Part shown: one piece after another, positions 22,310 through 41,372 of the stretch | How the letters are laid out: each line of letters starts with the position of its first letter | How positions within the stretch are numbered: position 1 is the stretch's first letter | Source of the DNA: Planctomycetota bacterium | GTDB lineage: Bacteria; Planctomycetota; UBA1135; UBA2386 | Reading direction: 5' to 3' | NCBI GenBank assembly: GCA_016872675.1 | Contig: VGZG01000017.1 | Span: 1-53,720, forward strand | DNA length: 53,720 nucleotides | Made by a program: the position numbers and the translations under genes | Notes under the pieces: model-generated | Told to the model about the DNA's origin: nothing | What the model saw: only the letters and a program-made list of their open reading frames with translations | Databases searched by the model: none

Positions 22310-22792
22310 TCAGCCGCGCGGCCGGAACAACCGGTCGGCGAACTTGCTGTCGCGGTGCTTGTCCGCGACCTTGCGCGTCCAGCGCATCGCCTCGGCGACG
22401 GGCACGAGCACCGCGCCGTCGGGCACCGGCAGCCAGATCGCCTGACCCTCGTGCGCCGCGATCTCCTTGTCGAATGCGGCGACCGTCTCGGCGGCCGCGA
22501 GCCGCGTCAGCAGCTTCATGTCGACCAGCGCCGCGCCGGCGCTGACGAACTGCTTGCTGCGCCCGAGCAGATCGTCGGTGCTGACCTCGAACAGATCGGC
22601 CAGCGCGACGAGATCCTCGCCAGTCGGGAAGCGGCTACAGCTCTCCCAGCGCGACACGGCGGATTCGTGACAGCCCAGGCGCTTGGCCACCTGGTCTTGG
22701 GTGTAGCCGCGCCGGGCCCGCAGTTCGCGCAGACGCGCTGCCAGGTGCAGGGTCATCGACCGGGGGGCTTGTTCTTCGGGTTGCTCGCTCAC
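22310..22792 (-). CDS. XRE-family helix-turn-helix regulator
   Basis: A 160-residue protein starting at GTG 22792; an ATG at 22756 would remove 12 residues and is also plausible. The HTH_3 domain (about residues 16-70) reads LRELRARRGYTQDQVAKRLGCHESAVSRWESCSRFPTGEDLV and is complete. The C-terminal 85 residues (VDMKLLTRLAAAETVAAFDKEI) are not a recognised effector domain. It is transcribed away from an ECF-like sigma gene. The region between contains clustered CTTGAC-type half-sites, a likely operator, so autoregulation and control of the sigma gene are plausible. Confidence 0.88.
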   Translation of the reverse strand: MSEQPEEQAPRSMTLHLAARLRELRARRGYTQDQVAKRLGCHESAVSRWESCSRFPTGEDLVALADLFEVSTDDLLGRSKQFVSAGAALVDMKLLTRLAAAETVAAFDKEIAAHEGQAIWLPVPDGAVLVPVAEAMRWTRKVADKHRDSKFADRLFRPRG

Positions 22793-22923
22793 GGCTTGGT
22801 GCGGGTTGGATTCCGTCTGCCACTAGCGGCCATTCTGGCCTCGCGGCGAGTCGTCGGAAGTGGCTGGTATCCCTAGGGGTTGGTGCGCTTGCAACCGGCG
22901 TTGCCGATTGCCGACAGGCGCTA

Positions 22924-22976
22924 GACAAGAGCCGATTCTTGACGTTTCGTCAAGTTTCTGGTCAATCTGGCTTGTC
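22924..22976. promoter_or_regulatory. Clustered CTTGAC/GTCAAG half-sites between XRE and sigma genes
   Basis: Five related hexamers occur in 53 bases: GACAAG (22924), CTTGAC (22938), GTCAAG (22949), GTCAAT (22961) and CTTGTC (22971). The second and third form a perfect 7-bp inverted repeat CTTGACG/CGTCAAG around TTT (22938-22954). A helix-turn-helix dimer operator is the simplest reading. Confidence 0.6.
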
Positions 22977-22993
22977 ACCCGAGGCGCCCCACC

Positions 22994-23497
22994 ATGGAAC
23001 CCAACCCGCATTCCCTTCTCCCTGTTGCCTACCAGGCGGCACGGCAAATCATCCGCTGCCGCGTGCTAGCCGAGGAAGCCGGCGAGCGGGCACTGCACGA
23101 ACTGACGCTCGCGATGCTGCAAGGCCAGCCGCCCGAGCACCCCAAGGCATGGTTGCGGCAAGTCGCTCGCCGGGCGGCGTGCTCGCTGCTGCGTTCGGAG
23201 TGGGGTCGCACGCGGGCGATGGAGCAGGCGGCGCTGCAGAACCAACCGGCGCCGGAGCGGCAGGCTGCGCCGGCCGACCTCGACCGCATTCGCGAAGCGC
23301 TGGAGGACACGCTGTCGCCGCGCCAGCGCGACGCCCTGCGCGCGGCGCGCTGCTGCAACGGCACCCGCGCCGCCGCCCGCAGCTGCGGCATGCAGCCGCG
23401 CGACTTTCGCCGCTCGCTGCTCGCCATCACCCGCAAGGCCCGCGCGCTCGGCGTCGACGATCTGCTCGCGATCGCTCGCCGCAACGGTCTCTGCTGA
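22994..23497 (+). CDS. Short ECF-like RNA polymerase sigma factor
   Basis: A 167-residue protein laid out like an ECF sigma factor. Residues 10-70 fit region 2 (VAYQAARQIIRCRVLAEEAGERALHEL with WLRQVARRAACSLLRSEW). A linker follows, then region 4 at about 105-150 with LSPRQRDALRAARCCNGTRAAARSCGMQPRDFRRSLLAITRKA, which contains the HTH. Region 2 is divergent and shorter than usual, so the protein may be an atypical sigma or a sigma-derived regulator. No anti-sigma gene is adjacent. It is divergent from the XRE regulator and shares its candidate operator region. Confidence 0.72.
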   Translation: MEPNPHSLLPVAYQAARQIIRCRVLAEEAGERALHELTLAMLQGQPPEHPKAWLRQVARRAACSLLRSEWGRTRAMEQAALQNQPAPERQAAPADLDRIREALEDTLSPRQRDALRAARCCNGTRAAARSCGMQPRDFRRSLLAITRKARALGVDDLLAIARRNGLC

Positions 23498-23564: not shown

Positions 23565-24374
23565 ATGACCACCTCGCTCGCCATCGTCTCGGCCGCCGCT
23601 GCGCTCGCCACGGCCTTCCTCGTCGCACCGCAGGATCCGCAGCCCGGCTACCGCGACACGCCGCGCCTGCCCGACGGCTGGCGCGTGCACGACGCCGAGC
23701 GACCGCGTCCGCCGGTCGTCGAGCCCGGCCCAGCCGGCGCGCCCGTGCCGCCGCCAAAGGACGCGATCGTGCTATTCGACGGCACGAGCCTCGCCGGATG
23801 GACCGGCCGCGACGACAAGGCGCAGTGGCGGATCGCCGACGGCGCCATGCAGGTCAACGGCACCGGCGACATCCAGACGCGCGACGAGTTCGGCGACTGC
23901 CAGCTGCACGTCGAGTGGTGCGCGCCGTCGCCGGCGAAGGGCGACAGCCAGGGCCGCGGCAACAGCGGCGTGTTCCTGTTCGGTCGCTACGAGGTGCAGG
24001 TGCTCGACAGCTACGACAACCCCACCTACGCCGACGGCCAGGCGGCGTCGCTGTACGGCCAGAAGCCGCCGCTGGTCAACGCCTGTCGCAAGCCCGGCGA
24101 GTGGCAGACATACGACATCGCCTTCCGCGCGCCGCGCTTTGGCGCCGACGGCAACGTCGTGACGCCGGCACGCGTGACCGTCGTGCACAACGGCCTCGTC
24201 GTGCAGCTCGACGAAGCGATGATCGGCGCCTCCACGCACCGCGCGGTCGGCAAGTACGCGCCGCACGGCGACAAGGGCCCGATCCGCCTGCAAGACCACG
24301 GCGACCCGGTGCGCTTCCGCAACCTGTGGATCCGGCCGCTCGACACGACGCGGCCCGCGCCAGCCGGCAAGTGA
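23565..24374 (+). CDS. Secreted DUF1080 (3-keto-disaccharide hydrolase-type) protein
   Basis: A 269-residue protein with a signal peptide (MTTSLAIVSAAAALATAFLVAPQ) and a Pro-rich linker. One DUF1080 beta-jelly-roll domain follows: IVLFDGTSLAGWTGRDDKAQWRIADGAMQV, GRGNSGVFLFGRYEVQVLDSYDN, ASLYGQKPPLVNACRKPGEWQTYDIAF and GPIRLQDHGDPVRFRNLWIRPL, all classic family segments. Family members are beta-glucanase-fold proteins found in large numbers in Planctomycetes, some active on 3-keto sugars. It is probably periplasmic or secreted. It converges on the VLRF1 gene, with stops one base apart. Confidence 0.9.
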   Translation: MTTSLAIVSAAAALATAFLVAPQDPQPGYRDTPRLPDGWRVHDAERPRPPVVEPGPAGAPVPPPKDAIVLFDGTSLAGWTGRDDKAQWRIADGAMQVNGTGDIQTRDEFGDCQLHVEWCAPSPAKGDSQGRGNSGVFLFGRYEVQVLDSYDNPTYADGQAASLYGQKPPLVNACRKPGEWQTYDIAFRAPRFGADGNVVTPARVTVVHNGLVVQLDEAMIGASTHRAVGKYAPHGDKGPIRLQDHGDPVRFRNLWIRPLDTTRPAPAGK

Positions 24375-24375: not shown

Positions 24376-25053
24376 CTAACCCAAACCTACCGGCGGCAGG
24401 TCGAGCCGACCCATGCCGAGCCAGCGGCGCACGCGCTGTAGCTCGGCGAAGTCGGGCCGATGCACGTGCATCGGCACGCGCTGTAGGCGCGCGTCATCGC
24501 GCGCGAACGGCGGAATCGGCTCGGCGGCGAGCAACTCCGGCAGCGTGCGCACCGGCACGGCGACGAATACGCGCTCGGGCGCGCCGAAGTCGCGCCAGTA
24601 GTCATGCAGCCGCGCGTTGGTCTCGCCGAGCAGTCGCTGCCAGTTCTGCAGGCGCAGGCGCGCGCCATAGCGCGACTTGCCGCGGGTCTTGCGATGCAGC
24701 GGCTGGGCCTTGCCGTGGCCGCGCACGACGTAGCGCCGGATCGCCTTGTGGTGCAGCAGCGCGTCGCCGTCCCAGTAGCCGACGGCCATCGCTCCGGCCT
24801 GCAGCAACAGCACGACGCTGCGCTCGGACTGGCCCGGCAGGCGCTTCTTGTAGTCGGCGAGCGCTTCGCCGGCCAACGCCCGCGGCGCCAGCAGCGGGAC
24901 GCGCAGGCGCGCGCCTGGCGCGCCAGCGAACGCGAGGCTGCGGCGGTCAGCGCGCGCCTCCGGCCAGCGCTGCAGGAAGGCTTCCACCTGCTCGGCGAGA
25001 TCGGCCAGCGCGAAGCGATGCGCTCGGGCTGGCCCGCTGCCGTCGCCGGTCAC
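24376..25053 (-). CDS. Vms1/ANKZF1-like (VLRF1) peptidyl-tRNA release factor
   Basis: A 225-residue protein beginning at GTG 25053, which overlaps the stop of the membrane-protein gene in GTGA. The core RRYVVRGHGKAQPLH plus RGKSRYGARLRLQNW (residues 106-138) matches the VLRF1 signature of Vms1/ANKZF1 and bacterial homologues. In those proteins a Gln in a glycine-rich loop acts like the GGQ of eRF1; here it would be Gln117. The preceding strands (SVVLLLQAGAMAVGYWDGDALLHHKAIRRY) fit the eRF1-like fold. Family members cleave peptidyl-tRNA on stalled large ribosomal subunits. No zinc finger or ankyrin repeats are present. Family assignment is from motif recognition only, and the bacterial function is inferred. 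Confidence 0.72.
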   Translation of the reverse strand: MTGDGSGPARAHRFALADLAEQVEAFLQRWPEARADRRSLAFAGAPGARLRVPLLAPRALAGEALADYKKRLPGQSERSVVLLLQAGAMAVGYWDGDALLHHKAIRRYVVRGHGKAQPLHRKTRGKSRYGARLRLQNWQRLLGETNARLHDYWRDFGAPERVFVAVPVRTLPELLAAEPIPPFARDDARLQRVPMHVHRPDFAELQRVRRWLGMGRLDLPPVGLG

Positions 25054-25538
25054 CGTGTCCCCGCCGGCCGCGCCAGCGACCGCATCAGCGCCAACGCCAA
25101 GACCCCCAGCGCCACCACCGTCGCGACGAACGACCACGGCGTCGTCATCAGCGCGAACGGCAGCGCGAACAGCGTCCAGACCAACGCATTGTCAGGCAGC
25201 CCGCTGAAGGCGAACACGCCACCGACGAGCAGCAGCACGAAGGCCGCGACCCCGACGGCGAACGGACTAGCGACGGCGAGGACGAAGGCCATCCACGGCG
25301 TCACCGACCGCGGCATCGCCCGCAGCAGCGCCGCGTTCGCCCAGCCGACCAGCAGGCCACCGAGGCAGATCGGCAACAGCACGATCGCAAAGCGCGGCGC
25401 GCCGGTGAAGTCGTTCGGCAGGATGCCAGCGCCCAGCACGAGGCCGGGGCCGACGGCGGCATGGGCGAGCGCCAGGGCAAGGGCGCGGGGCGCGAACGCC
25501 GGCGCGGCGGCAGCAGGCACGACGAAGGGCGCGGTCAT
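25050..25538 (-). CDS. Polytopic membrane protein of unknown function
   Basis: A 162-residue hydrophobic protein with about four or five transmembrane helices (RALALALAHAAVGPGLVLGAGI, FAIVLLPICLGGLLVGWANA, TPWMAFVLAVASPFAVGVAAFVLLLVGGVF, LVWTLFALPFALMT and SFVATVVALGVLALALM). No family was recognised. It is the first gene of a two-gene operon with the VLRF1 factor and overlaps it by four bases. A TATGCT hexamer ends 9 nt before its ATG. Confidence 0.75.
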   Translation of the reverse strand: MTAPFVVPAAAAPAFAPRALALALAHAAVGPGLVLGAGILPNDFTGAPRFAIVLLPICLGGLLVGWANAALLRAMPRSVTPWMAFVLAVASPFAVGVAAFVLLLVGGVFAFSGLPDNALVWTLFALPFALMTTPWSFVATVVALGVLALALMRSLARPAGTR

Positions 25539-25594: not shown

Positions 25595-25600
25595 TAGGCT
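25595..25600 (+). promoter_or_regulatory. -10 element (TAGGCT) for the glycosyltransferase operon
   Basis: TAGGCT ends 10 nt before the GTG at 25611. TTCGGC (25572-25577) is 17 nt upstream, as in the kinase promoter at 18225-18253. Confidence 0.6.
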
Positions 25601-25610
25601 GTCACGCGGC

Positions 25611-26882
25611 GTGCGCATCACCTTCGTCGTCCATCAGTTTCCGCCGCGCTACTTCACCGGCACGGAGACCTACGCGCTCGCCGTCGGCAAGGAACTGCGC
25701 CGGCGCGGCCACGACGTCGACGTCTTCACGCTCGATCCGGCGTTTGGCGAGGCGACTGGCCCGTGGCGCGATTCGCGCGAGACCGTCGATGACCTGCCAG
25801 TGCGGCGACTCAACTACTGGATGCGCATCGTGCCCGACTGGGTCACGGCCGAATACCGGCACCCGCTGATGGCCGCGACCTTCGCGCACCATCTCGCCGA
25901 ACGGCGGACCGAAGTCGTGCACAGTTTTCATCTGCGTCACGTCGGCGCCGATCTGCTCGACACGGCGCGGCTGCACGGCGCGCGCACGGTGGTCTCGCTG
26001 ACCGACTTCTGGTTCCTGTGCCCGCGCGTGATCTTGATGAAGCGCGACGGCAGCGCCTGCGACGGGCCGCCGGACGGCGGCCGGGGCTGCCTCGCCTGCC
26101 ACGTGCCGGACCTGATCGGACCGCCACAAGACGACGCCGAGCGGCAACGCCGCGACCGCGCTCTGCTGGCACGCCCGTCGTACCTGCGGGACCGCCTGCT
26201 CGCCGCCGACGCCCTCGTCGCGCCGACCAGCTTCCTCGCCGGCATGTTCGCGCACAACGGCGTGCCCGAAGGTCGTATCGCAGTACGCGGCTATGGCATC
26301 GATGCAAGAGGCATTGCCGCACAGGTGGCGGCCACGCCGCGCGTGCCGCGGCCGCTGACGTTTGGCTTCTTTGGCACGTTCGGCCCGCACAAGGCGCCGC
26401 ACGTGCTCGTCGACGCGCTGGCGCAGGTGCGCGGCGACTGTCGCGCGCTGCTGCACGGCCGCACGAGCGACTTCCCCGACTACGCCGGCGGCCTGCTGGC
26501 CGCGGCGGCGAAGGACCCGCGCGTATCGGTCCTGCCGCCCTTCGACCGCGTTGGCCTCGCGGCAGCCCTCGCTTCGATCGACGTGCTGATCGTGCCGAGC
26601 ACGTGGCACGAAAACGCGCCATTCGTCGTGCTCGAGGCCCGCGCCGCCGGCCTGCCGGTGCTCGCCAGCCGCTTCGGCGGCCTGCAGGAAGTCGTGCGCC
26701 ACGAGGTCGACGGCGAGCTGTTCGCGCCCGGCGACGCCGGCGACCTGGCGCGCCGCCTGCAGCGCCTCTGCGACGAGCCGGGACGTCTTGCGCGCTATCG
26801 CGCCGCCGTGCAGCCACCGCGAACGATCGAACAGGCCGTCGACGACTTCGAAGCCCTGTACCAGGAGGCGCCAGCCCGATGA
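25611..26882 (+). CDS. Family 4 glycosyltransferase with four-Cys insertion
   Basis: A 423-residue GT-B enzyme. The start at GTG 25611 gives MRITFVVHQFPPRYFTGTETYALAVGKEL, a typical GT4 donor-lobe start. The C-terminal lobe contains FGFFGTFGPHKAPHVLVDAL and the EX7E-type active-site region PSTWHENAPFVVLEARAAGLPVLAS. A four-Cys insertion at Cys137, Cys150, Cys160 and Cys163 (FWFLCPR, DGSACDGPPDGGRGC, LAC) could bind zinc or an iron-sulfur cluster. The paralogue at 36637 has the same residues at identical positions. It is first in a three-gene operon and overlaps the next gene by four bases. Confidence 0.9.
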   Translation: MRITFVVHQFPPRYFTGTETYALAVGKELRRRGHDVDVFTLDPAFGEATGPWRDSRETVDDLPVRRLNYWMRIVPDWVTAEYRHPLMAATFAHHLAERRTEVVHSFHLRHVGADLLDTARLHGARTVVSLTDFWFLCPRVILMKRDGSACDGPPDGGRGCLACHVPDLIGPPQDDAERQRRDRALLARPSYLRDRLLAADALVAPTSFLAGMFAHNGVPEGRIAVRGYGIDARGIAAQVAATPRVPRPLTFGFFGTFGPHKAPHVLVDALAQVRGDCRALLHGRTSDFPDYAGGLLAAAAKDPRVSVLPPFDRVGLAAALASIDVLIVPSTWHENAPFVVLEARAAGLPVLASRFGGLQEVVRHEVDGELFAPGDAGDLARRLQRLCDEPGRLARYRAAVQPPRTIEQAVDDFEALYQEAPAR

Positions 26883-28357
26883 CCGCGCCCATCGTCGTCT
26901 GGCAGGGTTGGCCGCACGCACCAGCGCCGCTCGTGGCGATCGCGGCGGCACGCCGGACGCCGGGGTGGCGGCTCGTCGATGACGCCGGCCGGCAACTGCC
27001 GTGGAGCGCGGCGCGCCGCGGGCGCGAGACGCTGCGCGTGCTGTGGCAGCGCGCGCTCGCCAGCGCGCTCGGCGCCGCGGCGCGGCTGGTCAGCGGCAGC
27101 CAGCCGGCGCCCGCGCCCGTGACGACGGACGCGGCCGGGCCCGTCGTGTTGGTCTTGCCGGTGCTGCCCGACCTGTCGCACACGTTCGTGTATCGCGAGA
27201 CGCTGGCGCTGCTCCGGTTGCATCCGGATTGGCGCGTCGTGGTCCTGCGCCGCAACGCGCAGGCGCCGGTGCATCCGGAAGCCCGCGCCCTGCTCGCGCG
27301 CGCGACCTTCTTGCCGCGCGATGGCGTCACCCGCGCAGCGTGGCGGGCGCTGCGCTGGCTCGCGCGCGCGCGTGGACGCGACCTGTTCGCGCTCTATCGC
27401 GCCGAGTCCGGCGGCTCGCCGCACGCGCTGCTCGACAAGCTGGCGCTGCGCGAGGCGCACCATCCCGGCAACGCCTTCCTGCTCGCCGACCTGCTGCGGC
27501 CGCTGCGGCCGCGCCACCTGCACGTCTACGGCTCGACCTGGCCGACCAACGTCGCGATGGGCGCGGCCCGCTTGCTCGGCGCGCCGTTCTCGATCTCGTC
27601 GTACGTCGACTTCGAGTTCGAGTACTCGCACCGCATGCTGGCGGCGAAGTTCCGCGACGCGCGCTTCTTCCGCGTGGTCACTGCGCACTGCCGACGACGA
27701 CTGGCGAGCGTGCTGCCGGCGAGCGCCACCGCGCCGGAGCGCGTGCCGGTGATCTACCTCGGCCTCGATCACGCTGACTGGCGCGAAGTCGCGCCGCTGC
27801 CCGGCGCTGGCGTGCTGGTCAGCGCCGCGCGCATCGTCGCCAAGAAGGGACTGCGGCAAGTGCCGCCAGCGCTGGCGCTGCTGCGCGCGCGCGGCGTCGC
27901 CTGCCGCTGGATCGTCGTCGGCGACGGACCTGAGCTCGCGCAGCTCCGCCAGGACTGCGCGGCCCGAGGCGTCGCCGACCTCGTCGACTTCCTCGGCCCG
28001 CAGGACAACACGGTCGTGCGCCGAGAATTGCTCGGCGCCGACCTCGCCGTGCTACCGTGCGTCATCACCGCCGACGGCGAACGCGACGGCATCCCCATCT
28101 TCCTCGTCGAGGCCATGGCGCTCGGCGTGCCAGTGGTGACGACGCCGATCTCCGGCATCCCCGAGCTCGTACGCGACGGCGAGACCGGCTATCTCGCCGC
28201 CGCGGGCGACGCATCGGCGCTCGCCGACGCACTGGCCCGCGCGCTGGACAACCCAGCCGCCGCTCGCGCCGTCGGCGCTGCCGGCCGCGCCGAGGTGCAT
28301 CGGGCGCTCGACATCGACATCTTGGCGCGGCAGCTCGCCGACCACATCGCCCGATGA
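26879..28357 (+). CDS. Family 4 glycosyltransferase
   Basis: A 492-residue GT-B enzyme with an N-terminal extension of about 90 residues before the first strand (PVVLVLPVLPDLSHTFVYRETLALL). The SHTFVYRE segment also occurs in the C-terminal GT of the 1530-residue protein as YSHTFVYQE, so the two are related. The C-terminal lobe has VSAARIVAKKGLRQVPPAL and the active-site region DGIPIFLVEAMALGVPVVTTPISGIPELV. It probably uses a nucleotide sugar from the nearby UDP-sugar genes, but donor and acceptor are not predictable. It is co-translated with both neighbours through ATGA overlaps. Confidence 0.9.
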   Translation: MTAPIVVWQGWPHAPAPLVAIAAARRTPGWRLVDDAGRQLPWSAARRGRETLRVLWQRALASALGAAARLVSGSQPAPAPVTTDAAGPVVLVLPVLPDLSHTFVYRETLALLRLHPDWRVVVLRRNAQAPVHPEARALLARATFLPRDGVTRAAWRALRWLARARGRDLFALYRAESGGSPHALLDKLALREAHHPGNAFLLADLLRPLRPRHLHVYGSTWPTNVAMGAARLLGAPFSISSYVDFEFEYSHRMLAAKFRDARFFRVVTAHCRRRLASVLPASATAPERVPVIYLGLDHADWREVAPLPGAGVLVSAARIVAKKGLRQVPPALALLRARGVACRWIVVGDGPELAQLRQDCAARGVADLVDFLGPQDNTVVRRELLGADLAVLPCVITADGERDGIPIFLVEAMALGVPVVTTPISGIPELVRDGETGYLAAAGDASALADALARALDNPAAARAVGAAGRAEVHRALDIDILARQLADHIAR

Positions 28358-29448
28358 ACGCGCCTACCCGCGTGCTACTGATCGCGCTGCTGCCGCTGCT
28401 GTGGCTCGCCGTGCTCGCGTTCGCCGTCGTCACACTGCTCGTCGACCTGGTGGCGACGCCGATCGTCCGACTGCTGCGCCGGCCGCCGAGCGACGCCACC
28501 CCGGCTAGCCGCGACGCCTCGATCATCGTGCTCAACTGGAACGGCCTGAGCTTCCTGCGCGAGCTGATGCTGTCGCTACAGATCGCCGTCGCGCGCTGCC
28601 CCGGCGACCACGAGGTCATCGTCGTCGACAACGGCAGCGACGACGGTTCCGCCGAGTGGCTGGCGGCGCAATGCCCGTGGGCGCGGCTCGTGCGCCTGCC
28701 GGCCAACCTGCAGTTCATCCGCGGCAACGCCGCCGGCGCCGCCGTCGCGACCCGCGACATCGTCGTCTTCCTCAACAACGACATGCGAGTCGAGCCGGAC
28801 TGGCTGGTCGAACTACTCGCGCCGTTCGGCGCGCCGGACCTCTTCGCCACCACATCGCGCATCGAGATGGCGGAGCCACGCAGTGAGACGGGCCTGACGC
28901 GCTGCTTCGTGCGCCACGGCGAGATCCGCTTCGTCCAACTGCCGGGCGCGGCCGGCGCGCGACAACCGGCGCTGTGGGCTGGCGGCGGCAGCAGCGCCTT
29001 CGACCGCGCCAAGCACGACGCGATCGGCGGCTTCGAGACCCTCTACGACCCGTGCTACTGCGAGGACGCGAGCCTGTCGTGGCAGGCGTGGCGGCGCGGC
29101 TGGCGCGTCGAGTACGCGCACGCGAGCGTGGTGCACCACGCTCACCGCGGCACGACGATGAAAGTCTTCGGGCGCGCGCGCCTCGAGCGGCTGAGCTGGC
29201 GCAATCGCGAGCTGTTCTTCGTGCGCAACGTCACCGACCCGCTGCTGGTAGCGACGCACGCGCTGATGATGCCGTGGAACCTGCGCAAGCACGCGCGACT
29301 GCTCGGCATGTCGCTGGCGGACGGCGCACTGGCGTGGCTTGCCGCCCTGCCACGGCTGCCGCTGGCGCTGTGGCATCGCGAGACGGCGCGCCGCCACTAC
29401 CGCCGTAGCGATCGCGCGCTACTGCGCGCCGTCAACGGCCCGCGGTGA
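28354..29448 (+). CDS. Membrane-anchored family 2 glycosyltransferase
   Basis: A 364-residue GT-A enzyme. An N-terminal transmembrane helix (VLLIALLPLLWLAVLAFAVVTLLVDLV) precedes the catalytic domain: ASIIVLNWNGLSFLRELM, the nucleotide-binding VIVVDNGSDDGSAEW and the metal-binding FLNNDMRVEPDWL. The acceptor-side motif DPCYCEDASLSWQAWRRGWRV resembles rhamnosyltransferase-type GT2 proteins with an ED pair. Topology suggests action at the inner face of the membrane on a lipid-linked or membrane-bound glycan. It is last in the 25611 operon, and its 3' end overlaps the opposing GT4 gene by 17 nt. Confidence 0.9.
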   Translation: MNAPTRVLLIALLPLLWLAVLAFAVVTLLVDLVATPIVRLLRRPPSDATPASRDASIIVLNWNGLSFLRELMLSLQIAVARCPGDHEVIVVDNGSDDGSAEWLAAQCPWARLVRLPANLQFIRGNAAGAAVATRDIVVFLNNDMRVEPDWLVELLAPFGAPDLFATTSRIEMAEPRSETGLTRCFVRHGEIRFVQLPGAAGARQPALWAGGGSSAFDRAKHDAIGGFETLYDPCYCEDASLSWQAWRRGWRVEYAHASVVHHAHRGTTMKVFGRARLERLSWRNRELFFVRNVTDPLLVATHALMMPWNLRKHARLLGMSLADGALAWLAALPRLPLALWHRETARRHYRRSDRALLRAVNGPR

Positions 29449-30631
29449 CCGCGCGCACGATGTCGCGCAGCGCCGCGAACGCGACTGTGTGGTCGTACTG
29501 CCGCTCGGCCAACGCGCGCCCGGCCTGCGCCAGGGCCACGCCGGCGCCGGCGAGCACGGCGCGCACGGCGGCGACGCCCTCCGCCGGCGTTTCGAAGCGC
29601 AGCCAGTGCCGACCCTCGACGCCAGCGAGCGCCTCGGCGCCGATCGCGGTCGACAGCACCGGCCGACCAAGGGTCCAGGCTTCGACGATCTTGCCGCGTG
29701 TGCCGCCGCCGGTGCGAATCGGCAGGTAGACGGCGTCGCTGGCCGCGTAGTGCGGCTGCACGTCGTGGACCGTGCCCACCACCTCGACGCCTTCGCGCCC
29801 GCGGAAGACGTCGAGTTCGCCATGGTCGGCGCGGCCGACGAGTCGGACGACGAGGCCAGGAAACGCCGCACGCAGGACCGGCAGGTGCGCGTCGACGAGT
29901 TCCGCGACCGCCTCGAGGTTGGGCGGATAGTCCATCGTGCCAACGAACAGCAGGCGCAGCGGCGCCGCCACCGACCGCGGCGGCAGCGGCACGAGGCGCG
30001 CCACGTCAACGGTGACCGGCACCGTGACCACGTGCGCGCCGGGGCAGAGCCGCAGCGCGTTGTCGCGGTCGAGGTCGGAGACGGTGATCGTCGTGTGCGC
30101 GCGGCGCAGCGCCTGTGTTTCGAGCGCGGTGATGGCGCGGGCTTCGCAACGCCGCGTCATGCGCTCGCGCCACGGCCGGCGCGGCCCGTCGCTGCGCGCG
30201 AATACGCCACCCTCGAGGTTGTGCAGGTGCAGCGCCAGCGGCGCCGGGCCCGGCGGCACGACCGGCAGAACGAATGAGCTGTCGGCGACGATCGCCGCCG
30301 GCCGCAGTTCGGCCGCGATCGCCGCCACGGCTGCCACCGCGTCCGCGCCCCAGCGCCGGTCGAGCAGTTCGGAACGCCCGCGGGCCCAGGCCCGCAACTT
30401 CCCAACCAGGCCGGAACGGCGCGGCGCCGGCGCTGGCACGCCGTGGGCGCGCACGCGCGCGCTGGCGGCCAGCGCGGCGAGATTGTGGCGGTCGTCGTCG
30501 CCGACAACGGGCGCGATCAGGTGGGCCTCGTGATCGACGGCGATCGCATCGAGTAGCAACCGCGTGCGGATGCTGCCGCCGTGGGTCAGCGGATGCGGCA
30601 CGTACGGAGCGAGAAGCAGGACGGAGCTCAT
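29432..30631 (-). CDS. Family 4 glycosyltransferase
   Basis: A 399-residue GT-B enzyme from ATG 30631 (MSSVLLLAPYVPHPLTHGGSIRTRLLLDAI). The PHPLTHGG start and the later LRLLFVGTMDYPPNLEAV with PIRTGGGTRGKIVEAWTLGRPVLST match the WcaI/TuaH-like GT4 proteins that often occur in exopolysaccharide clusters. It is monocistronic, convergent and overlapping with the GT2 at 28354. It is divergent from a small coiled-coil gene, with which it shares an intergenic region of about 45 bases. Confidence 0.9.
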   Translation of the reverse strand: MSSVLLLAPYVPHPLTHGGSIRTRLLLDAIAVDHEAHLIAPVVGDDDRHNLAALAASARVRAHGVPAPAPRRSGLVGKLRAWARGRSELLDRRWGADAVAAVAAIAAELRPAAIVADSSFVLPVVPPGPAPLALHLHNLEGGVFARSDGPRRPWRERMTRRCEARAITALETQALRRAHTTITVSDLDRDNALRLCPGAHVVTVPVTVDVARLVPLPPRSVAAPLRLLFVGTMDYPPNLEAVAELVDAHLPVLRAAFPGLVVRLVGRADHGELDVFRGREGVEVVGTVHDVQPHYAASDAVYLPIRTGGGTRGKIVEAWTLGRPVLSTAIGAEALAGVEGRHWLRFETPAEGVAAVRAVLAGAGVALAQAGRALAERQYDHTVAFAALRDIVRAVTAGR

Positions 30632-30663
30632 GGCAGCGCCGTCGCCAGCGCTTCCGCCGAAGG

Positions 30664-30669
30664 TATAGT
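30664..30669 (+). promoter_or_regulatory. -10 element of a probable leaderless promoter (TATAGT)
   Basis: TATAGT ends 7 nt before the GTG at 30677. It is the closest match to TATAAT seen in the window. Confidence 0.65.
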
Positions 30670-30676
30670 CGGCGCC

Positions 30677-30862
30677 GTGACTTCGCCATCCAAGGATCCC
30701 GCCGCCGAGATCGCCGAACTGCGCGAGCGACTCGCGCTCGCCCACGCCTCCCGCGACGACCTGCTGGCGCAGTGCCAGGACATGCTGCGGCTCGTCGAGG
30801 AACTGCAGCGCCGCGTGCGCAAACTCGAAGAGCGCTGCCGCCGCGTGGAGAGCGACCGCTAG
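30677..30862 (+). CDS. Small coiled-coil protein
   Basis: A 61-residue product from GTG 30677. Almost the whole chain is one predicted amphipathic helix with heptads (AEIAELRERLALAHASRDDLL followed by MLRLVEELQRRVRKLEERCRRVE), so a dimeric coiled coil is likely. Two Cys residues are present. The leaderless -10 element 7 nt ahead supports the start. It resembles small helical scaffold or SlyX-like proteins only in general character, and no function can be assigned. It lies between two polysaccharide glycosyltransferase genes on the opposite strand. Confidence 0.62.
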   Translation: MTSPSKDPAAEIAELRERLALAHASRDDLLAQCQDMLRLVEELQRRVRKLEERCRRVESDR

Positions 30863-30917
30863 GAATCGGCGTCACAGGCCGCGTGCCGGGCGACTTAGCC
30901 TGCCGCGACGCAGGCTC

Positions 30918-31886
30918 CTAGCCGATGCCGCGCTCGAGGCGCTTGCCGAGCAGGCGCAGGAACGCGCCGGCGGCGCTCGGCAAGCCAGCGCCAGCCATCG
31001 CGCCGACGTACTGGCCCCAGCACTGCCACTTCACGTACTGGATCGTCCACTTGAGCGCCGCGGTTTCCTCGTCCGGCGGCAAGCCGAGGCTGCGCACGTA
31101 GGCACAGTGCTCCTTGGTGCCGTGCTCGATCGCGCCTTTCAGGCACGCACGATCGGGGATGCCGACGAGGCCAAAGAGCTCGCGTAGGTTGCGATGGTCG
31201 CAGAACGTGCGCTTGCCTTCGGCCCAGGCTGAGCGGTCGTGGCTGTGCGTCACGGCGGCGCCGCCGTGGTGCGCCAGCGTCATGCCAGCGGCGATCGCAC
31301 GCTTGCCGAAGTAGACGTCCTCACCGAAGCGACGCGGGCCAAGCGGAAAGCGCTGCCATGCCGAGCGCCGCAGGCACGACGCGACATTGTCGAAGGCGCA
31401 GAGCATCAGCCGGTCGATCGGTTGCAGGTCGTCGAGCGACTTGCCGTCGGGCAGCCGCTTCTTGGTGACGCCATCGCCCCATCCCGGCCACCCGAGGATG
31501 CGCCGCTTCAGCACCGGTTGGCACTTCGCGCGCGGGATCTGGCGGCACCAGACGCCCGCGACCTGCGGGTCCTCGAACGGCGCCACCATCTTGGCCAGCC
31601 AATCGGTCCCCTGCAGCGTCGCGTCCTGCACTAGCAGGACGACATGCTCGCTGCTGGTCAGCGCGATGGCACGATCACGCGTCCCGCCGTGATCGAACTC
31701 GCGCTGCGGGATCGACGCGACGCGGAAGCCAGCGCGCTGCAACCGCTCGACCGTGCCGTCCGTCGAGCCGCTGTCGATCGCCTGTAACTCGTCGACCACA
31801 ACGCCCTTCTGCGCCAGGATCGCAGCCAAGACTTCGTCGAGCAGGGGGCCGGCGTTCCACGTCGGCATCACGAGGGCAATGGACAC
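30918..31886 (-). CDS. Family 2 glycosyltransferase, rhamnosyltransferase-like
   Basis: A 322-residue GT-A enzyme. The GTG at 31886 starts it as MSIALVMPTWNAGPLLDEVLAAI. Key segments are LQAIDSGSTDGTVERL, REFDHGGTRDRAI, which is characteristic of rhamnosyltransferase-like GT2 proteins, VVLLVQDATLQGTDWL and GEDVYFGKRAIAAG. There is no transmembrane helix, so it should be cytoplasmic or peripherally bound. The sugar is a guess from family resemblance, and no dTDP-rhamnose genes are in the window. It is divergent from the large fusion gene at 32033. Confidence 0.88.
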   Translation of the reverse strand: MSIALVMPTWNAGPLLDEVLAAILAQKGVVVDELQAIDSGSTDGTVERLQRAGFRVASIPQREFDHGGTRDRAIALTSSEHVVLLVQDATLQGTDWLAKMVAPFEDPQVAGVWCRQIPRAKCQPVLKRRILGWPGWGDGVTKKRLPDGKSLDDLQPIDRLMLCAFDNVASCLRRSAWQRFPLGPRRFGEDVYFGKRAIAAGMTLAHHGGAAVTHSHDRSAWAEGKRTFCDHRNLRELFGLVGIPDRACLKGAIEHGTKEHCAYVRSLGLPPDEETAALKWTIQYVKWQCWGQYVGAMAGAGLPSAAGAFLRLLGKRLERGIG

Positions 31887-32010
31887 GCCGCCATCTTGCC
31901 GGCCCGCAACCCCGCGTGCCACATGGGCTGGCGAGCGGCCTTCGGCCAGGTATCGCCGCCAACCGATGATGCCGTCGAAGGTTCCGCTGTCTCACCGCCC
32001 GTTACGGCAT

Positions 32011-35000: not shown

Positions 35001-36625
35001 AACTAGCCCGCGCTGAGCAAGCTGAGGCAAGCGCGACGGCGTTGGCCGGCAACCTTGGGGTCGCACGCGCCCACGGTGACCAACTGACTCGCGAACTCGC
35101 TGCCGAGCGCGCGATCATCGCCGAACTAGCGCCGCGCGCCGCTTCGTTGAAGGGCGAACGCGACCGGCTGCTGCAAGACCTCGTCCGCACCGAAGCCGAG
35201 CGCGCGCGCCTGCAGGGCTCGCGCGAGTGGCGGTTCGGCAACTTCGTCTGGAACAAGATGCCTCTCGGATACCTCTCCCGTCGCGGCAAGAAGTGGCTGC
35301 GCCGTCTCACCGACCTGAAGGATCGCGCGCTGATGCGCACGCGGCGCCGGGCCGAGGGTGTCGCCGTCGTCGCTGCCTGCTGGGAGTGGCCGATCTACAG
35401 CCACACCTTCGTCTACCAGGAGATGATCGGCCTCACGCACATGGGGCTCGACGTCCGAATGTTCCACTGGAATCTCGGCGACATCGGCCAGCTGCACAAG
35501 GCATTCAGCTACCTCGCCGACCACCGCACCGAGCTGCAGCCGGTCTGGGAGAACCACGTCCGCGACAAGCAGCACTTCGAGCGCACGAGGCCCGGGCGCC
35601 TGCGCGCCTTCCTGGAGCTGGTGGCGCAGCGCACGGGCCGCCCAGTCGCAGAGTTAGAGACGGAGCCGCTGGTACTGCAGGGATGCACCTTCGCCCGCAT
35701 GGCGGAGCTCGCCGCCGCGAAGTACCTGCACAGCTACTTCTTCTACGACCAGTCGTTCATGGTCATGCAGGCGGCTTGGCTGCTCGGCATCCCGCGTGGC
35801 GTCTCCTGCTACGCCGACCACATGCTCGACGACTACCCGTTCAAGCTCGTCGGCCTGCAGGTGGAACTGGCCGACGTGATCGTCGCCACGAGCGCGCGCA
35901 TCAAGCACGAGTTGTCCGCCAAGTCGGGCGGCAAGCACGACGACAAGATCGTCGTCAAGCCAAACGGCGTCGACGGCGCGCGCTTCCCGGCCGTCGACCG
36001 CCCCGCGCGCCAGAAGGGCGACCGCTTCGAGGCGATTTCCATCTCGCGCATCGAGCCGAAGAAGGGCCTGACGTACCTCGTCGAGGCCGTCGCCGACCTG
36101 ACGCGCCGCGGGCACGACGTGGTCGTGCACGTCATCGGCAGCAAGGACATGCACAGCAAGGGCAGCCTCGAGTACGCCGAGGGCTTCGAGCGCCGCATCG
36201 CCGACCTGGGCATGCAGGAGCGCGTGATCCTGCACGGGATGAAGAAGCAGGAGGAACTGGCGCCGCTGCTGCAGCGCTCGCGCGCGTTCGTCGCTCCATA
36301 CGTCGAGATCGAGAATGGCGACAAGGACGGCATCCCGACGGCGATGCTCGAAGGTCTCGCCTCCGGCCTGCCGGTCGTCACCACCGATTCCGGCTCGATC
36401 CTCGAAGTCGTCGACAACGACGTCGAAGGCATCGTCGTGGCGCAGCGCGACGCCAAGGGCCTCGCCGACGCCTTCGAGCGGCTGATCACCGATCCGGCGC
36501 TCGAGCGCCGCATGGCCAAGGCCGCGCGCGGCCGCTTCGACCGCGAGTTCGACATCCGCGTCACCGAACGCCGGCTGCACGAGCGGGTCGCCGCCCTGGT
36601 GCGCGCCGTCGACAAGGCAAAATAG
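32033..36625 (+). CDS. 1530-residue fusion: SPASM-like region, GT2, coiled coil and GT4
   Basis: Four parts are visible. (a) Residues 35-300: a SPASM-like Cys set (Cys42, Cys60, Cys85, Cys88, the last two as HCGGCAMW) and then a segment that reads like a radical-SAM barrel but has no CxxxCxxC. (b) About 464-700: a GT-A domain with VTVLIPSYKHEAYVSDAI, VLVVDDRSPDGT and LLNSDDLFHPDRL. (c) About 800-1060: a long coiled coil whose core is built from 14-residue tandem repeats. (d) About 1106-1530: a GT-B domain with YSHTFVYQE, SISRIEPKKGLTYLVEAV and GIPTAMLEGLASGLPVVTT. Two catalytic domains on a rod suggest sequential sugar transfers. No transmembrane helix is seen. The GT4 gene at 36637 follows 11 nt later. 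Confidence 0.85.
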   Translation: MSAAPNEPSPREDGSTVRVDRSAIDAARRRLNRQLLGSWTACTAPQRLLVLDAAAGPRPCEAGFGEPPTDLTARLAAGELPLPHCGGCAMWLADELYASTPALAAHGAPGMNGVAIVVRLTAAAPALSTALLATLDAALPTAASLTLETALPIDADGPAAVRASVRRLAPALPLTLRTDAVAVLRGAAAAGLGLAAIEWLATDADQGALDAVRAAAAAGAKARVRLLLTPTSWHHLEPLARACAALRLPLAPSVLDHAGTAPLAALSTADLQLAKHVLLAAWTRLAGPERIESLAEDAFNEVTAQLRALLRRALARPAEDATDRPPLAMPALTHPWCVEPTFAPWWATTLLQQGDHPAVRRWIADLLNATNIDEAVSAHAWLRVLLQREVANRRCDRARTALRRAYATPRAHKGLARADAAFAKAVDLSPFGGPWTERVGLAPKSARKPPFTVGRRRAGAKDKPRVTVLIPSYKHEAYVSDAIRSALAQRGVALRVLVVDDRSPDGTVAAARAVADPRVKVRVNARNLGLGNSTLAALAAVTTPYVALLNSDDLFHPDRLARCLAALDADASGQVVATGICLVDRDGGELKPDCVSDVLDGRLIYDWVQWYHRSAPTAAAAQADLFGELLERNFLVTSSNLVARTDWLRGKSAEMQSLKYCLDWRLFLAAAAEGSLRRIDEPLLAYRLHEANTVWFDPERRWSYYLEVHRVAAEALGQAAASPRAELAALLRAVVTHCVANTEVDGYGLLLHRLVDAARLDAEAADDPSVRAFVRLLEVRAKHSAETSANDGRQQALAALTEEQWQAECGERRWLQGYCEALERRLAESWEERRRLEAELSDRSADAARAQEVASARQQRIDALQRDIDALRSSLDTVDKLQKLVSEQLATVQRQRDEAVHRSESAQARATTAERNHDTQLLRAEAAEQAKDAQIHRAEQAEGQRDAQRLRAEAAEQAKDAQIHRAEQAEGQRDAQLARAEQAEGQRDAQLARAEQAEASATALAGNLGVARAHGDQLTRELAAERAIIAELAPRAASLKGERDRLLQDLVRTEAERARLQGSREWRFGNFVWNKMPLGYLSRRGKKWLRRLTDLKDRALMRTRRRAEGVAVVAACWEWPIYSHTFVYQEMIGLTHMGLDVRMFHWNLGDIGQLHKAFSYLADHRTELQPVWENHVRDKQHFERTRPGRLRAFLELVAQRTGRPVAELETEPLVLQGCTFARMAELAAAKYLHSYFFYDQSFMVMQAAWLLGIPRGVSCYADHMLDDYPFKLVGLQVELADVIVATSARIKHELSAKSGGKHDDKIVVKPNGVDGARFPAVDRPARQKGDRFEAISISRIEPKKGLTYLVEAVADLTRRGHDVVVHVIGSKDMHSKGSLEYAEGFERRIADLGMQERVILHGMKKQEELAPLLQRSRAFVAPYVEIENGDKDGIPTAMLEGLASGLPVVTTDSGSILEVVDNDVEGIVVAQRDAKGLADAFERLITDPALERRMAKAARGRFDREFDIRVTERRLHERVAALVRAVDKAK
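34802..35030 (+). repeat. In-frame 84-bp and 42-bp tandem repeats encoding coiled-coil units
   Basis: An 84-bp unit (starting at 34802 and 34886) is duplicated almost perfectly. Its second half then recurs with 42-bp spacing at 34928, 34970 and 35012, the last one partial. Each 42-bp unit encodes 14 residues (two heptads) of the type RAEQAEGQRDAQLA. Confidence 0.9.
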
Positions 36626-36636
36626 GCGACCGCGCG

Positions 36637-37911
36637 ATGCGGCTGCTCTACGTCATCCACCAGTTCTTCCCCGACTGCCGCTCGGGGACCGAGCAGTACT
36701 GCTTGGCGCTGGCGCGTGCCGCCCGCGCCGCCGGCCACGAACCGACGGTGCTGTCGCTGCACTGGGACCACGACCGCGACTGGCCGACGATCCGCCTGTT
36801 CGAGCAGCCATACGACGGCCTGCGCGTGCTGAGGCTCAACCACTGGCGCCGCGTCAACGCCAACGACGTGCTGCGCGACTACCAGAACCGCCACCTCGAC
36901 GGTTGGTTCCGCACCGTGCTCAACGACGTGCGGCCCGACGCCGTGCACTTCATGCACCTGCGCCAGCTCGGTTCGCAGCTGATCGATGTCGCCAAGGCGG
37001 CCGGCGCGCGCACAGTCGTCAACCTGATGGACTTCTGGTTCCTGTGCCCGCGCTTCACGCTGCTGCGCGGCGACGGCAGCCTATGCGACGGGCCGCCCGA
37101 CGGCGGACTCGGCTGCGTGCGCTGCAACTATCCGGAGCTCGCCGGCGCCGAACCCGCCACCGGCGCGCCGATGCTTACCGACGACCCGCCGGCGCGTCTG
37201 CGCGCGCTGCTCGATCGCAAGGAAGCCAACCTGCGGGCGCTGGCGCGAGCCGACGCCGTCGTCGCGCCATCGCGGTTCCTTGCCAGCATGTTCGCGCGCA
37301 ACGGCTTCCCCGCCGACCGCGTCACCGTGGCGCCGTACGGCTTGCCGGCCGGGCGCGTCGCTCCGCGCCCGGTCGCGCGCCCGCGGACGCCACTGCGGCT
37401 CGCGTTCTGCGGCGTGCTGTCGCCGTGGAAGGCGCCGCACCTCGCAGTCGCCGCAGTGCGGTCCACCGCCGCCCCAGTGACGCTCACGCTGCACGGCAAC
37501 GCCGACGAACCGATGTTCGCCGACTACATCGCCGGCGTTCGCGCGGCGGCCGGCGGCGATCCGCGCATCGCCTTCGCGGGGCCGTACGGCGAGGAGCAGG
37601 CATCCGACGTGTTCGCCGGCATGGACGCGCTGGTCGTGCCGAGCACTTGGTACGAGAACACGCCCTTCGTCGTGCTGGAGGCGTTCGCCGCCGGCGTGCC
37701 GGTGATCGCATCGGACCTCGGCGGCCTGTCCGAGATCGTGCGCGACGGCGACAACGGCCTGCTGTTCCGTGCCGGCGACGCTGGCGCACTGCGCGCCGCG
37801 ATCGAACGGCTGTGCGGCGAGCCTGGCCTTTACGCGCGGTTGCGCCCGGCGCCGCCGCACGGCATCGACGCGGACTTCGCGCGCTTCTGCAGCCTCTACC
37901 GCGGCAACTGA
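36637..37911 (+). CDS. Family 4 glycosyltransferase with four-Cys insertion, paralogue of 25611
   Basis: A 424-residue GT-B enzyme starting MRLLYVIHQFFPDCRSGTEQY. It has the same architecture as the 25611 protein, including the insertion FWFLCPR, DGSLCDGPPDGGLGC and VRC with Cys137, Cys150, Cys160 and Cys163 at identical numbering. The C-terminal lobe has LAFCGVLSPWKAPHLAVAAV and VPSTWYENTPFVVLEAFAAGVPVIASDLGGLSEIV. It lies 11 nt after the 1530-residue fusion and is probably co-transcribed with it. Gene duplication within the island is the simplest origin. Confidence 0.92.
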   Translation: MRLLYVIHQFFPDCRSGTEQYCLALARAARAAGHEPTVLSLHWDHDRDWPTIRLFEQPYDGLRVLRLNHWRRVNANDVLRDYQNRHLDGWFRTVLNDVRPDAVHFMHLRQLGSQLIDVAKAAGARTVVNLMDFWFLCPRFTLLRGDGSLCDGPPDGGLGCVRCNYPELAGAEPATGAPMLTDDPPARLRALLDRKEANLRALARADAVVAPSRFLASMFARNGFPADRVTVAPYGLPAGRVAPRPVARPRTPLRLAFCGVLSPWKAPHLAVAAVRSTAAPVTLTLHGNADEPMFADYIAGVRAAAGGDPRIAFAGPYGEEQASDVFAGMDALVVPSTWYENTPFVVLEAFAAGVPVIASDLGGLSEIVRDGDNGLLFRAGDAGALRAAIERLCGEPGLYARLRPAPPHGIDADFARFCSLYRGN

Positions 37912-37933
37912 CGCCGCCGTCCGACGCGACCGG

Positions 37934-39304
37934 TCAGCCCTGGCGCGGGCCGAAGCCGAGCACCTGCTTCAGCGCGCCTACCCACGAGCGCCCGGAGCGC
38001 AGCTCGTCCTCGCGCAGGCGCAAGCGGCCGAGTTCCGACTCGGCCTTGGCGAGTCGCTGGCACAGGTCGGCCAAACTGCGCGCGGGCGCGGAGGCCAGCT
38101 TGCCGTCGAGGAACGCCTGATAGACGTCGACGCTTCGCCTGGCGATGGCGACGTCGGTGAGTCGCTTCTCTACCTCGGCGCGCGCGGCAGCGCCGCAGCG
38201 GGCGCGCAGGCCGTCGTCCTCGATCATGCGCTGCAGCGCCGCGACGAAGGCCGCCGGGTCGCCGTTCTTCGCCAGCAGGCCGGTGCGTTCGTGCTCGATC
38301 AGCTCCGGCATGCCGCCGCAGTCCGACGACACGATGGCGCGGCCGGCGGTCATCGCCTCGAGGCAGCTGTAGGGGCAGTTCTCCCACAGGCTCGGGATCA
38401 GGAAGATCGCGCTCTTCTTCAGGCATGCGCGCACCTCCGGCAGGCCGAGCTGGCCGAGGTAGAAGAAGCGCTGCTGCAGGCCATGGTCCTTCACCCACGG
38501 CAGGATGCGCTTCTCCATGTGGCCGAAGAGGTCGCGGCCGGCGAAGACGAACGCGATGTCGCGATAACGCGCGAGCGTGCCTTCCACCATCTTCTGCACG
38601 ATGTGGATGCCCTTGCGCTCCTCCATGCGGTTGGCGAAGAAGATCAGCTTCTTGTCCTTCGGCAGGCCGAAGCGCGCGTGCACGTCGATGCCCTCGTCGC
38701 GGTCGAACAGCGGCACATCGATGCCGTTGGGGATGACGTGGATCGGGTCGCGCTCGCCCATCTTCACGGTCACCTCGTCAGCCAGGAACCGGCTGCAAGA
38801 CGTCAGCACCTGCGCCTGGTTGATCGCCAGCTGCTCGGCAAACGCGGTCAGCACGCGGTCGATCTTGGGCGTGTCGTAGATGCCCATGATGAGCCGCGCC
38901 GGCGAGTGAAAGCGCACGGCCGTCGGAATCGACAGCATCGTCGTCGACACCATCGCGTCGGCGCCGCACTCGGGCGCCTCGACGAAGTCGAACGGCTTGC
39001 GAGCGTGCTCCTTCGCCAGCCCCTCGAAGGCGTCGGTCGCGGTTGTCACGCGGTTCTGGAACCACCACGCGCGCGCCTTGCGGGCGTTGTCCAGCATGCC
39101 GTTGACGCAGCCTTCGCGCTTGACGCGCGTGACCTTGACGCCCTCGTGCTCCGAGCGGAACACGCCAGGCTTCGTCGCGCCGGCGAAGACGTGCACGTCG
39201 TGGCCGATCTTGGCCAGCGCCCGCGCCTGGTAGTACGCGTACGTGCCGATGCCGCCGAAGCCCGTCTCGGGCGGATACTCGAAGCTCAGGATCGCGATGC
39301 GCAT
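37934..39304 (-). CDS. Family 4 glycosyltransferase
   Basis: A 456-residue GT-B enzyme from ATG 39304, MRIAILSFEYPPETGFGGIGTYAYYQARAL, the classic GT4 opening. It has HVIPNGIDVPLFDRD, LIFFANRMEERKGIHIVQKM and the active-site region WENCPYSCLEAMTAGRAIVSSDCGGMPELIEHERTG. A C-terminal extension of about 60 residues is helical (LADLCQRLAKAESELGRLRL) and may mediate association. It is the last gene of the ugd-uxs-galE operon, so its donor may be one of the UDP-sugars made by that operon, UDP-glucuronate, UDP-xylose or UDP-galactose. Confidence 0.92.
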   Translation of the reverse strand: MRIAILSFEYPPETGFGGIGTYAYYQARALAKIGHDVHVFAGATKPGVFRSEHEGVKVTRVKREGCVNGMLDNARKARAWWFQNRVTTATDAFEGLAKEHARKPFDFVEAPECGADAMVSTTMLSIPTAVRFHSPARLIMGIYDTPKIDRVLTAFAEQLAINQAQVLTSCSRFLADEVTVKMGERDPIHVIPNGIDVPLFDRDEGIDVHARFGLPKDKKLIFFANRMEERKGIHIVQKMVEGTLARYRDIAFVFAGRDLFGHMEKRILPWVKDHGLQQRFFYLGQLGLPEVRACLKKSAIFLIPSLWENCPYSCLEAMTAGRAIVSSDCGGMPELIEHERTGLLAKNGDPAAFVAALQRMIEDDGLRARCGAAARAEVEKRLTDVAIARRSVDVYQAFLDGKLASAPARSLADLCQRLAKAESELGRLRLREDELRSGRSWVGALKQVLGFGPRQG

Positions 39305-39336
39305 GTTCGTCGCCACCGGCGCCGGCGGCCTCGTGT

Positions 39337-40356
39337 TCACTTGCCCGGCAGGGTCTGCTGCCACCGCCACGCGTCGGCCATGCATTGCTCCAGCGTGCGC
39401 TCGGCGCGCCAGCCGAGGCCGGCGGCGGCCTTCTGCGTGTCCGCGTACGCGGCGACCACGTCGCCAGGCCGCCGCGGCGCGAACTCCCACTGCAGCTTGC
39501 GGCCGGCCGACCGCTCGAAGGCGTGGATCACCTCGAGCACGGTCGAGCCGGTGCCGGTGCCGAGGTTGAACGTCTCGACCGGCTCGCTGCCCTTGTCGGC
39601 CAGCAGCCGCTCGAGCGCGTAGACGTGCGCCAGCGCCACGTCGACGACGTGGATGTAGTCGCGGATGCAGGTGCCGTCGCGCGTCGGGTAGTCGTTGCCG
39701 AAGACCTTGAGCGCGCCGCGCAGACCGGCGGCGCTCTGCGTGATGAAGGGCACGAGGTTCTGCGGCACACCGAGCGGCAGTTCGCCGATGCGGGCCGTCG
39801 GGTGCGCGCCGATCGGGTTGAAGTAGCGCAGCGCGATGGCGCGGAAGCCGTGGGCCCTGGCGCCATCGCGCAGGATCTCCTCGCCGACCTGCTTGGTGTT
39901 GCCGTACGGCGACTCCGCCGGCTTGATCGGCGCGTCCTCGCGGATCGGCAGGCTGTCGGCCTGGCCGTAGACCGTGCACGACGAGCTGAAGATCAGTCGG
40001 CACGACGGCCGCTCGGCGAGGTGATCGAGCAGGTTGACCAGCGAGCCAAGGTTGTTGCGGTAGTACGCCAGCGGCTTCTGCACCGACTCGCCAACCGCCT
40101 TGAAGGCGGCGAAGTGGATGATGCCGGCGAGGTCGCCGAGACCCTGGAGCAGGCTGCGACAAGCCGCCTGATCGGCGAGGTCGACGTTGGCCCAGGTCGG
40201 ACGCTGGCCGGCGATCGCGGCGACGCCGTCGAGCACTTCGGCCCGCGTGTTGGACAGGTTGTCGACAACGACGACGCGGTAGCCGCGGCCGAGCAACTCG
40301 ACCGCGGTGTGGGAGCCGATGAAGCCAAGCCCGCCGGTGACGAGGACGGTCTTCAT
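39337..40356 (-). CDS. galE: UDP-glucose 4-epimerase
   Basis: A 339-residue extended SDR from ATG 40356. The NAD-binding GGLGFIGSH, catalytic Ser/Thr region SSSCTVYG, YGNTK (YxxxK) and RYFNPIGAHPTARIGE all match GalE. Others include VFGNDYPTRDGTCIRDYIHVVD and NLGTGTGSTVLEV. It interconverts UDP-glucose and UDP-galactose. A Cys replaces the more usual Ala in SSSATVYG. It is third in the operon, 10 nt after the UXS gene. Confidence 0.95.
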   Translation of the reverse strand: MKTVLVTGGLGFIGSHTAVELLGRGYRVVVVDNLSNTRAEVLDGVAAIAGQRPTWANVDLADQAACRSLLQGLGDLAGIIHFAAFKAVGESVQKPLAYYRNNLGSLVNLLDHLAERPSCRLIFSSSCTVYGQADSLPIREDAPIKPAESPYGNTKQVGEEILRDGARAHGFRAIALRYFNPIGAHPTARIGELPLGVPQNLVPFITQSAAGLRGALKVFGNDYPTRDGTCIRDYIHVVDVALAHVYALERLLADKGSEPVETFNLGTGTGSTVLEVIHAFERSAGRKLQWEFAPRRPGDVVAAYADTQKAAAGLGWRAERTLEQCMADAWRWQQTLPGK

Positions 40357-40366
40357 GGCCGGCGGC

Positions 40367-41353
40367 TCACTTGCGCACGTAGCCCTCGAAGTCGCGGTGC
40401 TCCTGCTTGTGGAGCACCTCCTTCGGCAGCGCCTTGAACGCTTCGTAGGTGATCTTGAGGCCCGCGGCGCGCGAGACCTTCGGCTCCCAGCCAAGAATCT
40501 TCTTGGCCTTGGTGATGTCCGGGCGGCGCTGCGTCGGGTCGTCCTTCGGCAGATCCTTGAAGACGATCTTCTGCTTGGTGCCGGTGAGCTTGATGATCTC
40601 CTCGGCGAACTGCAGGATCGTGATCTCGTCTGGGTTGCCGATGTTGACCGGGTACGGGTAATCGCTGTGCAGCAGACGGTAGATGCCCTCGACGAGGTCA
40701 TCGACGTAGCAGAACGACCTCGTCTGGCTGCCCTTGCCGAACACCGTCAGGTCCTCGCCGCGGATCGCCTGGCCGATGAACGCCGGCAGCACGCGGCCGT
40801 CGTTCAGCCGCATGCGCGGGCCATACGTGTTGAAGATGCGGATGATCCGCGTCTGCAACCCGTGATAGGTGTGATAGGCCATCGTCATGGCCTCCTGGAA
40901 GCGCTTGGCCTCGTCGTAGACGCCGCGCGGGCCGACCGGGTTGACGTTGCCCCAGTACTCTTCTGTCTGCGGGTGCATCGCCGGGTCGCCGTAGACCTCG
41001 GAGGTCGACGCCACCAGGATGCGCGCGTTCTTGGCCTTGGCGAGGCCGAGGCAGTTGTGCGTGCCGAGCGAGCCGACCTTCAGCGTCTGGATCGGGATCT
41101 TCAGGTAGTCGATCGGCGAGGCCGGCGACGCGAAGTGCAGGATGTAGTCGAGCGGCCCGGAGACGTGGATGAAGTTGCTGACGTCCTTGTCGTAGAACGT
41201 GAACTGCTTCAGCGGGAAGAGGTGGTCGAGGTTGCGCAGGTCGCCGGTGATGAGGTTGTCCATCCCCAGCACTTCGTAGCCTTCGCGAATGAAGCGGTCG
41301 CAGAGGTGCGAGCCAAGGAACCCGGCGGCGCCGGTGATCAAAATGCGAGGCAT
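40367..41353 (-). CDS. UDP-glucuronate decarboxylase (UDP-xylose synthase)
   Basis: A 328-residue extended [54 protein letters not shown] (YxxxK), [10 protein letters not shown] and [15 protein letters not shown]. The combination of [20 protein letters not shown] and YDEAKR is characteristic of UXS. It converts UDP-glucuronate from the upstream Ugd to UDP-xylose. A few bacterial relatives make UDP-apiose or other products, so the name is strong but not certain. It lies 19 nt after ugd and 10 nt before galE. Confidence 0.92.
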
Positions 41354-41372
41354 TCTCTTCGGTCTCCGTTCG

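Follow-up and report, generated by a model that had tools for sequence, protein, structure and literature searches.

In bacterial ribosome quality control (RQC), the step that frees the tailed chain has been described as the most poorly understood; it had no known factor of its own, and Pth has been proposed as the RQC release factor in B. subtilis (PMC11317155). No Vms1-type factor has been described in this bacterial system, in which RqcH, RqcP and MutS2 act with Pth release. The eukaryotic proteins Vms1 and ANKZF1 combine a release-factor (VLRF1) domain with a Rei1-type zinc finger, ankyrin repeats, a coiled coil and a VIM. Mutation of R288, G292 or Q295 in yeast Vms1 abolishes or strongly impairs release (PMC5989216), and the arginines of the helix that follows the VLRF1 loop have been given an rRNA-contact role (PMC6514570). 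A related family, bVLRF1 (PF18826), is already catalogued in bacteria; it is known mostly from Bacteroidetes and some Heimdallarchaeota, and its host range in Planctomycetota is under-described. Our search of the literature found no biochemical work on any bVLRF1. As for RqcH outside this phylum, a published survey appears to record it in 404 of 1,956 FCB genomes (PMC11633108, Table 1). Here we describe a planctomycete bVLRF1 gene and compare it with these systems.

Results

The 225-residue protein is a stand-alone bVLRF1

The window analysed, a stretch of 53,720 nucleotides, carries on its minus strand a gene (24376..25053, GTG start) for a 225-residue protein with a Vms1-like release-factor domain. 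In a Pfam profile search, this protein matched PF18826 with an E-value of 1.5e-23 and 83.8 bits (cut-off 27) over model positions 2-136 of 145, and no other Pfam domain scored above its own cut-off. An earlier note on this DNA had read a VLRF1 signature and a Vms1/ANKZF1-like identity from the sequence; the signature is borne out by residues 108-137 and by the profile match, and the identity is supported by the profile and by Vms1 being the best match in the PDB in both sequence and fold. The protein is a stand-alone bVLRF1 and a clear member of PF18826. It has the whole core domain, the GxuQ motif, the short N-terminal extension and the stand-alone architecture of that family, and it differs from the described members in its planctomycete host. 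The zinc finger and ankyrin repeats that the note had remarked upon as missing are indeed absent; this is normal for bVLRF1 (PMC6514570) and not a special feature of this protein. The related acVLRF1 clade was also considered and was rejected, as the similarity is faint and far below both curated cut-offs (PF18859, 11.4 bits against 27.1, E=0.37; NF041024, 16 bits against 125, E=0.0074). The host genome has one copy of bVLRF1, and a search for plasmid copies found none. Compared with the nearest relative, bVLRF1 has a dN/dS of 0.28 and the membrane-protein gene beside it one of 0.35, so the two appear to be real genes on which selection acts.

Residues essential in yeast Vms1 are conserved

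Orthologues were collected from near relatives of the host (39 sequences) and from elsewhere in the phylum (seven), giving a set of 46. The catalytic loop spans residues 108-126 (YVVRGHGKAQPLHRKTRGK; 24676..24732, minus strand). Within it, in the stretch YVVRGHGKAQ, lies Gln117 (codon CAG, 24703..24705, minus strand), which aligns with Vms1 Q295. Y108, R111, G112, G114, Q117 and G125 are invariant in the 39 close orthologues, and Gln117 is identical in all 46, which supports the proposal of the earlier note that it is the catalytic residue. R111, G114 and Q117, which align with R288, G292 and Q295 of yeast Vms1, are conserved in 45-46 of the 46. The exception for R111, as for Y108 (each kept in 45/46), is genome G231, whose bVLRF1 (L101) cannot be aligned in its N-terminal part up to residue 110; its catalytic core aligns, and the divergence is probably a frameshift or an assembly error. 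The GxuQ motif is present as G114-K-A-Q117, in the loop that leads from the third strand of the 78-106 sheet to a helix formed by residues 128-156 in the AlphaFold model. At the start of this helix (residues 128-137, RYGARLRLQN; 24643..24672, minus strand), R128, R132 and R134 are invariant in 46/46 orthologues and are the predicted contacts with 23S rRNA.

The planctomycete loop, RGxGxAQ, has one residue fewer than the RRKQGGSQ of Vms1. A single planctomycete in the draw, genome G105, has a long Vms1-like loop (RKKQGKSQ; L095); its bVLRF1 also has the top PF18826 score among the planctomycete genomes drawn and is a candidate for a separate acquisition.

Fold and proposed mechanism

An AlphaFold model built on the 39-row orthologue alignment (pLDDT 90.8, pTM 0.86) has an RNase H fold like that of eRF1 domain 2. 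Neither result that the earlier note had named as fatal to its reading, a fold unlike the eRF1-like domain or a Gln117 that varies among orthologues, was thus seen. The loop around Gln117 is partly disordered in the model, with pLDDT below 50 at 110-116 and 118-122. In a fold search of the PDB, 60S-bound Vms1 scored best (E=2e-7); the top four matches were all Vms1, three of them on 60S, and were followed by eRF1, aRF1 and Balon. With a moderate TM-score (0.54 for the query) and about 14% of residues identical in the structural alignment, the resemblance is one of superfamily and fold, and Vms1 is the nearest relative of solved structure. A search of PDB sequences with the single bVLRF1 sequence gave no match, whereas hmmsearch with the orthologue profile found yeast Vms1 as the best hit (E=5e-7), placing Gln on Gln. 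Thus the protein resembles Vms1/ANKZF1 in fold, in the essential R, G and Q residues and in the conserved arginines of the following helix, and lacks the additional domains of the eukaryotic proteins.

Family membership, fold and the invariance of the residues essential in yeast Vms1 are established for bVLRF1. Its most likely activity is the hydrolysis of peptidyl-tRNA in the A-site of the 50S subunit, independently of a stop codon. The eRF1-domain-2-like fold would fit into the vacant A-site of a large subunit on which a peptidyl-tRNA has stalled, with R128, R132 and R134 holding 23S rRNA. The flexible RGxGxAQ loop would place Gln117 in the peptidyl-transferase centre to promote hydrolysis, and the nascent chain would come free with no stop codon involved. 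We regard such a stand-alone release-factor mechanism as probable, catalysis being the part of it that we infer.

The membrane-protein neighbour is not a conserved partner

Upstream of bVLRF1 on the same strand is a gene for a 162-residue polytopic membrane protein (25050..25538, minus strand, ATG start). The two reading frames overlap by four bases, as the earlier note had reported, and the overlap is kept in the nearest relative. The membrane protein matched no Pfam family; a simple hydropathy count gives about five hydrophobic segments in the host and three in the nearest relative. From this arrangement a membrane-associated rescue module had been proposed. The membrane gene, however, was found in only two of 61 related genomes, the host (G000) and its sister (G001), whereas bVLRF1 was found in 39. 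Inspection by eye showed a divergent glycosyltransferase-like gene in the upstream slot in other members of the genus and often an FNR-like gene in the rest of the family. Since the membrane gene is confined to two genomes and the other neighbours vary too, a membrane-associated function is unsupported. As a neighbour of bVLRF1, the membrane protein is recent, dispensable and lineage-specific; although the overlap is retained, a rescue module made of the two proteins is highly improbable.

Downstream of bVLRF1, DUF1080-like, small and HTH genes (named by eye) are kept in many members of the family, mostly in the opposite orientation. In the window they occupy 23565-24374 and 22310-23497; their order beside bVLRF1 is fixed in many of these family members, with no functional link apparent. 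Runs of glycosyltransferase-like and nucleotide-sugar-enzyme-like genes, as in a surface polysaccharide cluster, were recognised by eye at 25600-31900 and 36600-42700. Across the 46 bVLRF1 loci, no conserved rqcH, other RQC gene or ribosome gene was found nearby.

bVLRF1 occurs almost only in genomes that encode RqcH

Two samples were used: the 61 near-relative genomes (the host and its relatives) and an even draw of 292 planctomycete genomes. The 39 near relatives with bVLRF1 include 31 of the 34 members of the host's family. In the phylum the gene is rare (14/292), and an NFACT/RqcH protein scored above cut-off in 112 of the 292 genomes. RqcH was present in 13 of the 14 genomes with bVLRF1 against 99 of the 278 without it (Fisher P=2e-5); this comparison covers related genomes of one phylum and corrects only in part for their kinship and for the depth of sampling. 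The lone bVLRF1 genome without RqcH in the draw, G231, is 85% complete and in 980 contigs. Each of the nine families that bear bVLRF1 also belongs to the 33, out of about 77, in which RqcH occurs (P=2e-4), with the proviso that deeper sampling of a family raises its chance of scoring for both. Among near relatives, RqcH was found in 37 of the 39 bVLRF1 genomes, and the remaining two genomes are 73% and 62% complete; in one family (f5), RqcH and bVLRF1 are both absent throughout the sample. A further RQC marker, MutS2, was less strongly associated with bVLRF1 (9/14 against 81/278). No earlier report of this co-occurrence was found in the literature. That bVLRF1 is found almost only in RqcH genomes suggests a partnership. 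A gene tree of the 46 bVLRF1 sequences had poor support at depth and contained no eukaryotic or Bacteroidota rows; it is consequently silent on the origin of eukaryotic Vms1.

The host genome encodes an RqcH-like NFACT protein, MutS2, Pth, tmRNA, RF1/RF2 and a third protein with an RF-1 domain, possibly ArfB, so that bVLRF1 would be an additional factor. The RqcH-like protein (L091; contig C113, ~2510-4055) aligns to B. subtilis RqcH over the coiled coil and NFACT-R. Its NFACT-N is separated from the coiled coil by 35 residues, compared with about 120 in B. subtilis: like other planctomycete RqcH/NFACT proteins it is without the HhH segment, and in most of the set the Pfam matches split there. 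The D-R motif of B. subtilis RqcH, which we take to be the tailing motif, reads E-R in the alignment in most RqcH of the host's family. The host thus resembles the described bacterial RQC in having an RqcH-like NFACT, MutS2, Pth and tmRNA, and departs from it in the missing HhH segment.

Discussion

Given the association with RqcH, bVLRF1 is a candidate for an accessory role in chain release in bacterial RQC, next to Pth. At least some of its work may be for the RqcH branch of ribosome quality control, where it would offer an alternative to Pth. This link to RqcH is a correlation, and we hold it tentatively. The 99 RqcH genomes of the draw without bVLRF1 indicate that RQC does not need it; the host also has Pth, which is reported to release RQC chains in B. 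subtilis (PMC11317155); bVLRF1 adjoins neither rqcH nor any ribosome gene; and, with the HhH segment missing and E-R in place of D-R, the activity of the host RqcH is itself uncertain. It is a serious possibility, short of a probable one, that bVLRF1 is instead the release factor of an RQC-independent route on 50S or 70S, backing up tmRNA and ArfB, with the co-occurrence reflecting shared clades. In the account of Burroughs and Aravind, prokaryotic VLRF1 stands alone and occurs independently of RQC components (PMC6514570). The lack of linkage to rqcH, and a host that has tmRNA, Pth and the possible ArfB, also favour such a route. Against it, the co-occurrence persists at the family level, and the family that has no RqcH has no bVLRF1 either.

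The chemistry may also be read differently. Vms1/ANKZF1 was called a tRNA endonuclease cleaving the CCA end in a 2024 paper on bacterial RQC (PMC11317155), and bVLRF1 has kept the R and Q residues in question; it might then cut the 3' CCA end of the tRNA and not the peptidyl-tRNA ester. We consider this unlikely: the yeast work on these residues reads as peptidyl-tRNA hydrolysis (PMC5989216), and Burroughs and Aravind oppose the nuclease reading (PMC6514570). Much less likely still is a role without catalysis, in which the protein would block the A-site or act in hibernation as Balon does; the presence of Balon among the structural matches brings it to mind. Burroughs and Aravind infer non-catalytic roles for families with a poorly conserved loop and no Gln (PMC6514570), whereas the loop and Gln of bVLRF1 are invariant (46/46); Vms1 outranks Balon in the fold search by three orders of magnitude in E-value, and no HPF/RaiA gene was recognised by eye among the genes adjoining bVLRF1.

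To return to a release factor linked to RqcH, it is possible, if somewhat doubtful, that in some Planctomycetota RQC is ended by a Vms1-type factor instead of, or besides, Pth, together with an unusual HhH-less RqcH. If so, bacterial and eukaryotic RQC would have in common not only the tailing factor but also the family of the release factor. The co-occurrence with RqcH points in the opposite direction to the treatment of bacterial VLRF1 as RQC-independent (PMC6514570). Should it hold in other phyla, it would provide a concrete candidate for the release step of bacterial RQC and would inform the question of how Vms1 passed from bacteria to eukaryotes.
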